A DNA stretch of 64,000 bases from Altibacter lentus (lineage in GTDB: Bacteria; Bacteroidota; Bacteroidia; Flavobacteriales; Flavobacteriaceae). A model generated the notes under the pieces. That model saw only the letters and a list, made by a program, of their open reading frames with translations, was not told where the DNA came from and ran no database searches. The stretch lies in assembly GCF_000746845.1 (NCBI RefSeq), contig NZ_KN050846.1, forward strand, positions 2,248,963-2,312,962, written 5' to 3'. The stretch's first letter is position 1. Every line of letters starts with the position of its first letter. A program made the position numbers and the translations under genes. Of this stretch, positions 30,341 through 57,620 are shown in pieces.

Positions 30341-31639
30341 ATGCAAGTAAAGAATTTCGTCGAAGAACTACAATGGCGTGGCATGGTCCACGATGTGATG
30401 CCCGATACTGAAGCTCATCTCATGGAGGAAATGCGAGCTGCCTATGTGGGGTTTGATCCCACTGCAGACTCCCTTCATATAGGTAATTTGGTGCCCATCA
30501 TGCTATTGGCCTTCTATCAGCGTTGTGGCCACAAGCCCTTAGCGTTAGTAGGTGGCGCCACGGGAATGATCGGGGATCCCTCTGGAAAGTCCAGCGAACG
30601 AAATTTATTGGATGAAGCTACCTTGCGCCATAATCAAGAATGTGTCCGCGCGCAGCTTTCGCAGTTTCTCGACTTTTCGTCGGGAGCTCCTAATGAAGCG
30701 GTCATGGTGAACAACTACGATTGGATGAAGGATTTCTCCTTCCTTGGTTTTATCCGGGATGTGGGAAAACATATTACCATCAATTATATGATGGCGAAAG
30801 ACTCCGTAAAGAATCGAATTTCAGGTGACGCTACAGAAGGGATGTCTTTTACAGAGTTCACGTACCAGTTGGTGCAGGGATATGACTTTTTGCATTTGTA
30901 CCGGGAACAAGGCTGCACCTTGCAAATGGGCGGGAGCGATCAATGGGGAAATATCACCACCGGAACAGAGCTGATTAGGCGTATCGCCGGAGGCAAAGGA
31001 TTTGCACTAACTTGTCCTTTGATCACAAAGAGTGACGGCAGTAAATTTGGTAAAAGTGAAGGCGGTAATGTGTGGTTGGACGCCAAGCGTACATCTCCCT
31101 ATAAATTCTATCAATATTGGTTGAACACCAGTGATGAAGACGCCGAAAAATATATAAAGATATTCACCTTTCTTGATAAGCCCACCATAGAGGCGCTTGT
31201 TGCAGAACATGCTGAAGCCCCTCACCTTCGATTATTACAGCGGCGATTGGCCGAAGAAGTAACGACCACCGTTCACGGGAAGGAAGCCTTGGAAAAAGCG
31301 ATACAAGCTTCGGAAATTCTCTTTGGACGTGCCACGTCTGCCCAGCTGAAACAACTGGATGAGGCAACCTTCTTAGACGTCTTTGAAGGTGTGCCGCAGG
31401 GAGAGGTCGAAGCTTCAACAGTAGCAGAAGGACTTGATATAATTAGCGCACTTGCCGAGCGCACCGGTTTCCTAAAATCCAACGGCGAAGCAAGAAGAGC
31501 CCTTAAGGAACAGTCTATTTCGGTGAATAAGGAAAAAGTTTCCGAAGGATATACAATTAGGAGCGAAGACTTAATTAACGGTCAATTCGTGTTGCTTCAG
31601 CGTGGGAAGAAAAACTATTTTATCATTAAGACCGTATAA
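30341..31639 (+). CDS. tyrS: Tyrosine-tRNA ligase
   Basis: The 432-residue class I synthetase has [18 protein letters not shown] (HIGH motif), [25 protein letters not shown] and the KMSKS counterpart [10 protein letters not shown]-terminal S4 RNA-binding domain (about 365-432) is present. It charges tRNA-Tyr. The stop codon lies within a short 8-nt tandem repeat. Confidence 0.98.
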
Positions 31640-31662
31640 CCGTATAACCGTATAATCGTATA
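31631..31662. repeat. Four tandem 8-nt repeats over the tyrS stop
   Basis: ACCGTATA occurs three times in a row, followed by ATCGTATA. The first copy encodes the end of TyrS and its stop codon, and the rest is non-coding. Confidence 0.8.
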
Positions 31663-31669
31663 AAAGAAG

Positions 31670-42881: not shown

Positions 42882-42889
42882 GAAAGCAG

Positions 42890-42924
42890 GGGTTAGTCTA
42901 TAGGAGATAGGGATTAGGTAATAA
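42890..42924. repeat. Left heptamer array of the first four-helix-bundle locus
   Basis: Five consecutive 7-nt units: GGGTTAG, TCTATAG, GAGATAG, GGATTAG, GTAATAA (first four ending TAG). They begin 8 nt after the reductase stop and end 9 nt before the four-helix-bundle ATG. Confidence 0.75.
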
Positions 42925-42933
42925 AAAAAGGGA

Positions 42934-43287
42934 ATGTCTATACATAAATTTGAAGACATAATTGCTTGGCAAAAGTCTCAAAACTTAGCTGTTTCAATTT
43001 ATAAAAATTTTAATCTTTCTAAAGATTTTGGATTCAGAGATCAAATTACAAGGGCATCAGTATCCATTTCAAATAATATTGCTGAAGGATTTGAAAGAGG
43101 TTCAAATGCAGATTTTGTAAGATTTTTATACATTGCATTAGCTTCAAATAGCGAAGTAAGATCGATGCTCTATTTATCAAAGAAATTAAATTATTTGCAA
43201 TGTGATATTGCAGATACGTTAATTGAAATGTCGAATGAAATATCAAGAATGCTTTACGGTTTAATTAAATCAATGACTAATTCCTAA
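42934..43287 (+). CDS. Four-helix-bundle protein of the S23 / 23S rRNA intervening-sequence family
   Basis: The 117-residue all-helical protein has the family marks IIAWQKSQNLAVSIY, RASVSISNNIAEGFERGS and SEVRSMLYLSKKL. The family was first seen encoded within 23S rRNA intervening sequences, and Avd of diversity-generating retroelements has the same fold; the function of stand-alone copies is unknown. Base composition is clearly AT-richer than the flanking genes. It splits a reductase-ferredoxin pair and is enclosed by inverted heptamer arrays, so it looks inserted. Its stop codon lies inside the right array. Confidence 0.9.
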   Translation: MSIHKFEDIIAWQKSQNLAVSIYKNFNLSKDFGFRDQITRASVSISNNIAEGFERGSNADFVRFLYIALASNSEVRSMLYLSKKLNYLQCDIADTLIEMSNEISRMLYGLIKSMTNS

Positions 43288-43304
43288 CCCCTAACTCCTA
43301 ATAA
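43277..43304. repeat. Right heptamer array of the first four-helix-bundle locus
   Basis: Four units CTAATTC, CTAACCC, CTAACTC, CTAATAA. The second is the exact reverse complement of the left unit GGGTTAG, and all start CTA, the complement of the left TAG endings. The array ends 6 nt before the ferredoxin start. Confidence 0.75.
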
Positions 43305-54597: not shown

Positions 54598-55143
54598 ATG
54601 GAAAAAGTAACTAAGGTTCAGGATACCATCGACGGGCAATTGCTCAAGGAGCGAAAGATCTTCTTATGGGGGATGGTCGATGATAAGAGTGCCAAACACA
54701 TTGTAGACCGGCTCATGTATTTGGATTCCCTGAATCACGACGAAATAAAATTCTATATCAACAGTCCGGGAGGTTACGTGACCAGCGGGTTCTCCATTTA
54801 CGACACCATGAAAAGCCTAAAGAGTCCCGTAGCGACTATTTGCACGGGTCTGGCAGCCTCCATGGGAAGCATTTTGCTTAGTGCCGGGGAAAAGGGGAAG
54901 CGGTACATACAGCCTCATGCACGGGTGATGATCCATCAGCCCAGCGGCGGTGCACGCGGACCGGCCAGTGATATCGAGATCACAGCCCAGGAGATCCTTA
55001 AAACCAAAGAGCTGAGTGCCAAGATCCTCGCCGATAATTGCGGACAGACTTTCGAAAAAGTGATGAAGGACTTTAACCGCGACCACTGGATGGGCGCAAA
55101 GGAAAGTGTGGATTATGGTATTGTGGATAAGATTGCTAAGTAA
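54598..55143 (+). CDS. clpP: ClpP-family serine protease subunit
   Basis: The 181-residue protein has the ClpP triad: S88 in GLAASMGS, H113 in MIHQPSGG, and D162 in FNRDHWMGA, and the INSPGGYVTSGFSIYDTM strand. The hydrophobic-pocket and handle regions look normal. It forms the degradation chamber with Clp ATPases. No clpX is adjacent, so it may be a second ClpP copy in this genome (inference). Confidence 0.93.
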   Translation: MEKVTKVQDTIDGQLLKERKIFLWGMVDDKSAKHIVDRLMYLDSLNHDEIKFYINSPGGYVTSGFSIYDTMKSLKSPVATICTGLAASMGSILLSAGEKGKRYIQPHARVMIHQPSGGARGPASDIEITAQEILKTKELSAKILADNCGQTFEKVMKDFNRDHWMGAKESVDYGIVDKIAK

Positions 55144-55159: not shown

Positions 55160-55194
55160 GGTGCATGGTGAATGGTGAAGGGTGATTGGATAAT
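55160..55194. repeat. Left heptamer array of the second four-helix-bundle locus
   Basis: Five consecutive 7-nt units: GGTGCAT, GGTGAAT, GGTGAAG, GGTGATT, GGATAAT. They begin 16 nt after the clpP stop and end 14 nt before the next ATG. Confidence 0.8.
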
Positions 55195-55208
55195 ATGACA
55201 GTTTTTTT

Positions 55209-55562
55209 ATGGATCATAAGGAAATGAATGTTTGGAATAAGGGTATGGATCTGGTTGAAAGGATTTATATAATCAGTAATGAATTTCCATCTGAAGAAAC
55301 CTATGGCCTTAAAAATCAAATAAGAAGAGCGGCTGTGTCAGTTCCGTCTAATATAGCCGAAGGTGCTGCAAGGAAAGGGAATAAAGAGTTTTTACAGTTT
55401 ATAAATATTGCGCTAGGCTCTTGGTCGGAAGTAGAAACTCAATACTTGCTAGCGATGCGCTTGGGATATAGTAAAGAAGATAAAGAACTTGATGAACGAA
55501 TCGTTTCAGTACGCAAATTACTTTTAGGAACCCGAAACTATATAAGAAAAACGAACGCTTAA
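55209..55562 (+). CDS. Four-helix-bundle protein of the S23 / 23S rRNA intervening-sequence family, second copy
   Basis: The 117-residue protein has the same length as the copy at 42934 and the same marks: MNVWNKGMDLVERIY, RRAAVSVPSNIAEGAARKG, SEVETQYLLAMRL. The two are clearly paralogous but far diverged, so not a recent duplication. It lies between clpP and a DUF58 gene, with heptamer arrays on both sides. Its stop codon overlaps the first base of the right array. Function of stand-alone members is unknown. Confidence 0.9.
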   Translation: MDHKEMNVWNKGMDLVERIYIISNEFPSEETYGLKNQIRRAAVSVPSNIAEGAARKGNKEFLQFINIALGSWSEVETQYLLAMRLGYSKEDKELDERIVSVRKLLLGTRNYIRKTNA

Positions 55563-55644
55563 CTACTCACTACTCACTAATCACTATTCACTAATCACTA
55601 TTCACTAATCACTATTCACTAATCACTAATCACTACTCACCATT
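55561..55644. repeat. Right heptamer array of the second four-helix-bundle locus
   Basis: Twelve consecutive 7-nt units, starting AACTACT and CACTACT, then alternating CACTAAT and CACTATT, and ending CACTACT, CACCATT. They are inverted relative to the left array (CACCATT is the complement of AATGGTG). The array ends 2 nt before the DUF58 ATG. Confidence 0.9.
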
Positions 55645-55646
55645 AA

Positions 55647-56576
55647 ATGAACATCGAAAAGGAAATAAACGAAATTACCGGCTTCAAGAATCTGGAGCTG
55701 CTCGCCACGCAGGTAGTGGAGGGGTTTATTTCCGGTTTGCACAAGAGTCCGTTCCACGGGTTTTCTGCCGAATTTGCCGAACACAAGATCTACAACAACG
55801 GTGAGAGTACCAAGCACATCGACTGGAAGCTGTACGCCAAGACCGACAAGCTATATACCAAGCGATATGAGGAAGAGACCAATTTACGGTGTCATTTGAT
55901 CCTGGACAACAGCAGCTCCATGCATTATCCGCCTGTAAAGCAGTTTGGGATCGGGTCGTTGAACAAGATAGGGTTTTCGGTACTGGCAAGTGCGGCCATC
56001 ATGAACCTCTTAAAACGGCAACGGGATGCGGTAGGCATGAGTATTTACAGCGATACGTATGAGTTCTATGCTTCGGAAAAGGGGAGCGAGCGCCACCATC
56101 ATTTATTGCTGCATCAATTAACCGAAGCCTTGACGCGAACACGCAGGCAGGTCCCTACCAGGACCTACACCCATTTGCACCTCATTGCCGAAAAGCTGAA
56201 GCGACGTTCGCTGGTATTCCTGTTCACCGATATGTTTCAGAGCGACGCCGAAGAAGAAAAGCTCTTTGAGGCCCTTCAGCATTTAAAGTACAACAAACAC
56301 GAAGTCGTACTCTTCCACACCTACGATAAGGAGAAGGAGATCCACTTCGATTTCAACAACCGCCCCAAGCGATTTGTAGACGTAGAGACCGGTGCCCATG
56401 TCAATTTGTATGCCGATACCATCAAGGCGTCCTATGAAGAAGCGGTGGCGCAGTATTTCAGTGATCTCAAATTAAAGTGCGGGCAGTATCGCATCAAGTA
56501 TGTGGCGGTCGATATCAAGGAATCCTTCAACAAGATCCTCACCACCTATCTGGTCGAACGGCAGAAGTTCGGATAG
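55647..56576 (+). CDS. DUF58 family protein (von Willebrand A-like)
   Basis: The 309-residue protein has the DUF58 signature STKHIDWKLYAKTDKLYTKRYEEE and a MIDAS-like LILDNSSSM followed by FLFTDMFQS, consistent with a vWA-like domain. These proteins act with MoxR AAA ATPases as chaperone-like modules; no moxR is adjacent. The ATG lies directly after the heptamer array. Confidence 0.88.
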   Translation: MNIEKEINEITGFKNLELLATQVVEGFISGLHKSPFHGFSAEFAEHKIYNNGESTKHIDWKLYAKTDKLYTKRYEEETNLRCHLILDNSSSMHYPPVKQFGIGSLNKIGFSVLASAAIMNLLKRQRDAVGMSIYSDTYEFYASEKGSERHHHLLLHQLTEALTRTRRQVPTRTYTHLHLIAEKLKRRSLVFLFTDMFQSDAEEEKLFEALQHLKYNKHEVVLFHTYDKEKEIHFDFNNRPKRFVDVETGAHVNLYADTIKASYEEAVAQYFSDLKLKCGQYRIKYVAVDIKESFNKILTTYLVERQKFG

Positions 56577-56784: not shown

Positions 56785-56858
56785 GGTCTGGTAGTTCAGT
56801 TGGTTAGAATACCTGCCTGTCACGCAGGGGGTCGCGAGTTCGAGTCTCGTCCAGACCG
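56785..56858 (+). tRNA. tRNA-Asp (anticodon GTC)
   Basis: The 74-nt sequence folds as a tRNA: acceptor GGTCTGG / CCAGACC, D-loop with AGTTCAGTTGGTTAGA, anticodon loop CTGTCAC (GTC), T-arm GGTTCGAGTC-type sequence GAGTTCGAGTCTC, discriminator G. CCA is not encoded. It decodes Asp. It lies at the boundary to the AT-rich region downstream. Confidence 0.97.
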
Positions 56859-56965: not shown

Positions 56966-57490
56966 GACAGTGAATCTTCGATTCACGTAGTCGAACTAAT
57001 CCCGCTGCAAGCGGGATCTCAATCTTTTATAGCCTTACCATGACAGTGAATCTATGATTCACGTAGTCGAACTAATCCCGCTGCAAGCGGGATCTCAATC
57101 TTTTATAGCCTTACCATGACAGCGAATCTTCGATTCGCGTAGTCGAAGGAATCCCGCTGCAAGCGGGATCTCAATCTTTTATAGCCTTGCCGTGACAGTG
57201 AATCTATGATTCACGTAGTCGAAGGAATCCCGCTGCAAGCGGGATCTCAATCTTTTATAGCCTTACCATGACAGTGAATCTATGATTCACGTAGTCGAAG
57301 GAATCCCGCTGCAAGCGGGATCTCAATCTTTTATAGCCTTACCATGACAGTGAATCTATGATTCACGTAGTCGAAGGAATCCCGCTGCAAGCGGGATCTC
57401 AATCTTTTATAGCCTTGCCGTGACAGTGAATCTATGATTCACGTAGTCGAAGGAATCCCGCTGCAAGCGGGATCTCAATCTTTTATAGCC
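56966..57490. repeat. Seven tandem copies of a 76-bp structured repeat
   Basis: Units start at 56966, 57042, 57118, 57194, 57270, 57346 and 57422, an exact 76-bp period; the last lacks its final spacer. Each has a 7-bp hairpin GTGAATC-nnn-GATTCAC, then GTAGTCGAA, then a 7-bp hairpin ATCCCGC-TGCAA-GCGGGAT, then TCAATCTTTTATAGCC and a TTACCAT or TTGCCGT spacer. Unit 3 has GCGAATC/GATTCGC, a paired change that keeps the stem. Units 1-2 read CGAACTA after GTAGT, units 3-7 CGAAGGA. No ORF. Function unknown. Confidence 0.95.
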
Positions 57491-57620
57491 TGATTTACTG
57501 AGGAAAAAAGTATCATTTGGGACATTACTCCCCGATCCGTCGTCTTAGTTTTGTTTACTTTTATTACTATAGCACTGTAAAACAGGATTTTATGTTATTT
57601 TGTTCAATCTATTAATTAGT

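Follow-up and report, generated by a model that had tools for sequence, protein, structure and literature searches.

To our knowledge, there is no agreement on what intervening sequences (IVS) and the S23 proteins do or how they move, and we know of no cause established so far for the heptamer excess seen in bacterial genomes. A REPtron consists of a RAYT gene and its inverted flanking REPs, in a genome in which REPs are also dispersed between genes. The IVS of Coxiella shares with the locus described here the S23 protein family, an ORF enclosed by terminal inverted repeats, and tandem heptamers (GACAGAT) beside it in a strain-variable copy number, but it lies in helix 45 of 23S rRNA and not between protein genes, and its heptamers were reported only upstream of the ORF and with no link to dispersed arrays (PMC4990558). 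REPtrons, which combine a RAYT (TnpA-REP) gene with REP/BIME sequences, resemble our locus in having a coding gene between inverted copies of a dispersed short repeat (PMC2817692, PMC8266576, PMC3116915). They differ in that RAYT is an HUH nuclease and the REPs are palindromic hairpins, whereas S23 lacks an HUH domain and its repeat is a tandem heptamer array. Intergenic 7-nt arrays, as found here, have been described as heptameric SSRs in Xanthomonas and Nostoc, with 70-75 convergent inverted heptamer pairs per Xanthomonas genome (PMC4692102), and as TAACTGA repeats in the Beggiatoaceae (PMC4679880); G4 formation or translational control were proposed as roles of these heptamers, and a term search of the two papers found no mention of S23.

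The heptamer excess, the inverted pairs of Xanthomonas and the TAACTGA arrays (PMC4692102, PMC4679880) as well as the heptamers of the Coxiella IVS (PMC4990558) are thus already published. A literature link of S23 genes to dispersed heptamer arrays was not found by a search that had most subscription journals outside its coverage, and a prior description is possible. The first-pass annotation of this locus had reported inverted heptamer arrays beside S23 genes; that observation is sound and larger than stated, and what is new with respect to it are the arrays that also occur far from S23 genes and whose presence tracks PF05635 across genomes.

Structure of the two S23 loci

The window (the whole stretch of 64,000 nucleotides from Altibacter lentus that was analysed) carries the following features at the clpP-DUF58 site:

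54598-55143, + strand: upstream host gene, ClpP-like protease (ORF; empty and occupied sites compared)
55160-55189, + strand: left heptamer array with units of the GGTGAAT type and a GTGA core, 4.3 copies, in the gap from the clpP stop to the S23 start (TRF, period 7)
55209-55562, + strand: S23 (23S-rRNA-intervening-sequence-protein) gene, 117 aa, intact, sense to the operon (ORF; PF05635, TIGR02436)
55562-55644, + strand: right heptamer array CACTAAT/CACTATT, 11.3 copies, inverted with respect to the left array (TRF; arm alignment)
55647-56576, + strand: downstream host gene, DUF58 protein (ORF)

The ClpP-like, S23 and DUF58 genes all lie on the + strand, and the DUF58 protein was found in 106 of 121 genomes of the host family at E<=1e-60. 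The left array reads GGTGCAT GGTGAAT GGTGAAG GGTGATT GG; five units had been claimed for it, and while the array itself is there, TRF gives 4.3 copies and the candidate fifth unit, GGATAAT, matches at only 5 of 7 positions. TRF resolves the right array with a period of 7 (11.3 copies) or of 14 (5.9 copies, 91% match), in agreement with the alternation of CACTAAT and CACTATT seen at first pass. This array begins within the S23 stop codon and ends 2 nt before the ATG of the DUF58 gene (55647), and the two arrays are inverted copies with a GTGA-core unit, as TRF and the sequence itself confirm for both the inversion and the right boundary described earlier.

The 117-residue S23 gene that had been placed between clpP and the DUF58 gene is likewise real (ORF 55209-55562). 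Its product matches PF05635 with an E value of 1.3e-35 (122.3 bits against a cut-off of 33.8) and TIGR02436 with 116.9 bits (curated cut-off 24), and is thus a normal member of the PF05635 family. Solved relatives found by sequence are 2GSC (Xanthomonas XCC0516) and 2RLD; both depositions contain five chains. Similarity to Avd of the diversity-generating retroelements is weak, the Avd model NF033474 giving E 1e-4 and 22.6 bits, far below its cut-off of 80 and outside Avd membership. In a check for HUH domains the gene matched PF05635 only, which sets it apart from an HUH-type TnpA-REP. Terminal inverted repeats surround the S23 ORF as in the IVS of 23S rRNA; an Rfam scan of 52-58 kb had a tRNA as its sole match, and the element lies between clpP and DUF58 and not in a 23S rRNA gene. 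The element is therefore IVS-like, but not a 23S rRNA IVS. It contains no transposase, and in a check for IS or MITE features the empty sites were too diverged for a target-site duplication to be read.

The 3.16 Mb genome has only two PF05635 genes (55209-55562 and 42934-43287), and both are in the window. The second locus comprises:

42889-42922, + strand: degenerate left array of the TAGGNNT type (sequence, unit analysis)
42934-43287, + strand: the other PF05635 gene, adjoining a ferredoxin-like gene (genome search, sequence)
43278-43303, + strand: right array of the CCTAACC type, inverted with respect to its own left array (TRF, 43283-43301; sequence)

Its degenerate TAGGNNT unit is present on both sides in inverted orientation, as the first reading of the sequence had it.

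Periodicity and arm matching in a survey of S23 genes

A survey that covered species genomes as well as the window's family yielded 225 distinct S23 genes from many phyla, 220 of them with both flanks. With a threshold of at least 20 matches of 28, the left flank was periodic in 89/220 loci and the right flank in 94/220, compared with about 1% of shuffles; the periods were nearly always 7 (or 14) and 8, rarely 6 as unit length, so that the 7-nt unit proposed earlier is predominant but not strict. No detectable periodic flank was seen in 89 of the 220 loci (about 40%). Strong period-7 runs, with 22 or more matches of 28, were present in the left flank of 26/90 and the right flank of 25/90 S23 genes and in 0/1800 shuffles on each side. 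The flanks of other ORFs at the same loci were seldom periodic (8/275 left, 12/283 right), and general intergenic low complexity was rejected as a cause on this ground.

Alignment of the left arm to its own right arm, taken as reverse complement, gave a mean score of 16.3, against 8.6 for the arms of other loci (p 2e-89) and only 10.2 for its own right arm in direct orientation. Insertion of S23 into a pre-existing array was rejected for most loci, because it would leave direct flanks and the observed flanks are inverted. In 55/65 loci the left and right unit consensus share 5-7 of 7 positions, whereas different loci mostly share 3-4, and unit sequence varies among loci even inside one genome. 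Matching of own arms was still higher when the same site was compared across species (15.4 vs 12.8, p 9e-8; 127 loci, 30 sites). Protein distance weakly predicts unit distance (Mantel r 0.21, p 0.0005), a correlation that is not significant below 50% identity. Within the arrays, a conserved core (GTGA, GTT, TAGG and others) is combined with variable positions, and runs of at least four invariant columns were found in 14% vs 5% under random placement. Two S23-flanking arrays with 8-nt spacing (L219 and L209, genomes G034 and G010) keep GTGA constant; they are hard to explain by slippage alone, because the other four bases change in nearly every unit.

Unit number varies as well. Two cyanobacterial plasmid loci, of Trichormus and Scytonema, are 99% identical across an alignment of 686 bases and are distinguished by a single clean indel of 14 nt (two units) in the left array, and Coxiella strains have 3 vs 2 heptamers (PMC4990558); the sequences were identical in a comparison of Riemerella plasmid strains. 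The first-pass annotation had suggested a common process that ties S23 genes to inverted arrays of about 7 nt, and had named as arguments against it a lack of excess at S23 genes and a constant unit number. S23 flanks exceed other flanks and unit number varies, and flank periodicity together with own-arm matching over the survey upholds the suggestion. The element in the window is one case of a general architecture.

Site history, orientation and host operons

At the clpP-DUF58 site, six species carry S23; in several others the site is empty and the gap measures some 4-28 nt, and in three species remnants of arrays are present but no gene. These gene-less heptamer stretches (L105, L107 and L113), at a site where relatives carry S23, possibly remained after loss of the gene. 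The S23 genes of the occupied sites are orthologous (63-74% identity) and have different heptamers; contrary to the earlier argument, a differing heptamer is therefore no proof of separate origins. Units differ among orthologues and own arms match best at a shared site, so that array turnover goes along with continued matching of the two arms. The pN/pS values of these orthologues, 0.22-0.34 with dS mostly saturated, show that the protein at this site is under purifying selection. The nearest relatives occupied the same site for 93/127 S23 genes; S23 thus mostly follows its site vertically, and no transposition event was caught.

Among genes with co-directional neighbours, S23 is sense to its host in 152 cases and antisense in 1; counted by distinct sites, the figures are 80 and 1. 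The sense-only orientation fits a dependence on host transcription, or a step at the RNA level as for the rRNA IVS. Judging by names recognised from the neighbour proteins, the host operons presumably include groES-groEL, sdhA-sdhB, accB-accC, cysD-cysN and fatty-acid oxidation; an S23 gene lies between apparent groES and groEL in two genera (L012, L156). An S23 pseudogene with two stops (L343, 1532-1852) was found inside the 23S rRNA gene of a gammaproteobacterium.

Arrays away from S23 genes

Contrary to what the first reading implied, arrays are not restricted to S23 genes. A 400-kb portion of a congener (G002) contains 17 period-7 and 8 period-8 arrays, and only five, all of period 7, lie beside S23 genes (four genes); 463 kb of the present genome contain three period-7 arrays, two of them at S23. 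Over both genomes (863 kb), 7 of 20 period-7 arrays are at 6 S23 genes, which account for about 1% of that sequence. The S23-less arrays that were inspected are mostly single and intergenic.

Across the window's family, a period-7 pattern of five TGA was present in 68/90 genomes with PF05635 vs 1/31 without (p 3e-13, with no phylogenetic correction), and a corresponding TAG pattern in 62/90 vs 4/31. The association persists for the TGA pattern among genomes of 3-4 Mb (43/58 vs 1/13), and genome size was rejected as its cause; among S23-positive genomes, arrays increase with the number of S23 genes (rho 0.41). Gammaproteobacteria replicate the association (25/50 vs 20/182, p 1e-8, again with no phylogenetic correction). 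There are exceptions: arrays occur in 20 gammaproteobacterial and 4 family genomes that have no PF05635 match, and some S23-positive genomes are arrayless. Genome-level counts include arrays beside S23 genes; in the present genome, however, the pattern matches at about eleven separate places, one of them at an S23 gene, and most counted arrays are therefore elsewhere. Array presence tracks PF05635 genome by genome, a co-occurrence that does not fix the direction of cause.

The S23-less arrays of this genome use the same two unit types as its two S23 loci. Such agreement was not seen in five other genomes sampled, and as a general rule it was rejected, since it holds for this genome only, of six. 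Near 150 kb, 2.65 Mb and 2.69 Mb of the same genome (L309, L314, L315), GTGA-type and TAGG-type arrays lie close to copies of an IS3-like element, and arrays may also ride with this insertion sequence. The congener has a composite intergenic stretch (L276, 5020-5720) with several 7- and 8-nt arrays and a common longer dispersed repeat.

Proposed element and competing explanations

We give a probability of about 0.5 to the reading that the left array, the S23 gene and the inverted right array form one intercistronic relative of the IVS whose cognate repeats have spread in trans, similar to a REPtron but without HUH. The stretch of 55.16-55.64 kb would then be a single element, placed in sense in the gap between two co-directional genes, and a protein-operon relative of the IVS of 23S rRNA. 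The heptamers would be the cognate repeats of S23, a four-helix-bundle protein that may be a distant relative of Avd and whose family has been crystallised with five chains; the left and right sides would be kept in match, and the heptamers would also occur S23-less across the genome, as REP sequences relate to RAYT transposases. In favour of this reading are the inverted arms and their joint divergence, the almost exclusive sense orientation, the empty sites, the selection on the protein and the co-occurrence of the gene with dispersed arrays, as well as the S23 pseudogene in a 23S rRNA gene and the heptamers of the Coxiella IVS (PMC4990558); the lack of a G:U excess between arms and of fold stability (see below), the loci with no periodic flank and the genomes that break the association count against it. 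An S23 oligomer might bind the repeats as RNA or single-stranded DNA, the transcript might be cut at the paired arms, and S23 might make or spread arrays in trans using host enzymes, which are invoked because we know of no catalytic residues in the S23 family. The S23 gene is flanked by inverted repeat copies and the heptamers are dispersed in gene-carrying genomes, as in REPtrons, and the relation of gene to dispersed repeat is REPtron-like in anatomy, although the locus is not a REPtron. More tentatively, S23 proteins in general could be trans-acting factors, with no known catalytic site, that create, spread or maintain tandem arrays of 7-8 nt, with a heptamer for each S23 lineage and the rRNA IVS as one specialised branch.

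The model predicts that an S23 protein binds the heptamer of its own locus and that turnover of the arrays depends on it. The data link two puzzles, the function of S23/IVS and the heptamer excess, in a Bacteroidota family and in the unrelated Gammaproteobacteria, and offer annotators a reason for the 'four helix bundle protein' genes in operons such as groES-groEL, sdhA-sdhB and accB-accC.

It is unlikely, in our view, that the element is an IVS at the RNA level and nothing else, with arms that pair into a long stem of the polycistronic transcript at which RNase III cleaves, so that the S23 mRNA is released and the host genes are spared, and with heptamers that merely offer many pairing registers and are not acted on by S23. 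Such a mechanism agrees with the sense-only orientation, with the complementarity of own arms, with the MFE structure of the window element, which pairs the two arms, and with the cutting of the Coxiella IVS by RNase III in its terminal stem in vitro (PMC4990558). However, transversions (612) dominate the arm mismatches, a G:U excess between arms is absent (135 G:U vs 204 A:C, a test confounded by the A-rich sense strand), and the fold of the whole-element RNA was no better than that of shuffles (z -0.36). As neither a G:U excess nor unusual fold stability was observed, an RNA stem is hypothetical; moreover, the fixed period of 7-8 nt, the S23-less single arrays and their tracking of S23 across genomes are left unexplained.

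We also doubt that S23 is a bystander, i.e., that some genomes form intergenic arrays of 7-8 nt by slippage, through defective repair or replication or by way of another mobile element, and that S23 sits there or needs them as an insertion target. The many arrays without S23 and those beside the IS3-like element would suit such an origin, as would the shift of copy number in whole units and the heptamer SSR excess known in several lineages with S23 unmentioned (PMC4692102, PMC4679880). It sits poorly with the flanks, which are inverted where insertion into an existing array predicts direct ones, with the concentration of period-7 arrays at S23 genes over the 863 kb, with the presence of TGA-type arrays in only 1/31 S23-negative family genomes, and with a conserved core and variable spacer positions beyond what random placement would give.

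We consider it improbable that the arrays are cis-regulatory only, whether S23 binds the repeats of its own mRNA or operon DNA and so regulates itself and its neighbours, or GTGA/ATGA/TTGA units act as overlapping stop-start signals that couple translation over the gap. The enrichment of TGA in units (45 vs 22 expected), the stop trinucleotides in 70/102 left sense-strand units (56.5 in shuffles) and a right array that runs up to the start codon of the following gene would fit. The right arm, however, is the reverse complement and does not carry this stop-start signal, and the S23-less arrays of S23-positive genomes stay unexplained.

Other repeats in the window

A period-8 array (ACCGTATA, 4.1 copies) at 31631-31663 has no S23 gene nearby and belongs to the class of period-8 arrays found at some S23 genes. 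At 56966-57491, shortly after a tRNA gene (56785-56858), a 76-nt unit is tandemly repeated in 6.9 copies (96% match), with small palindromes inside the unit.
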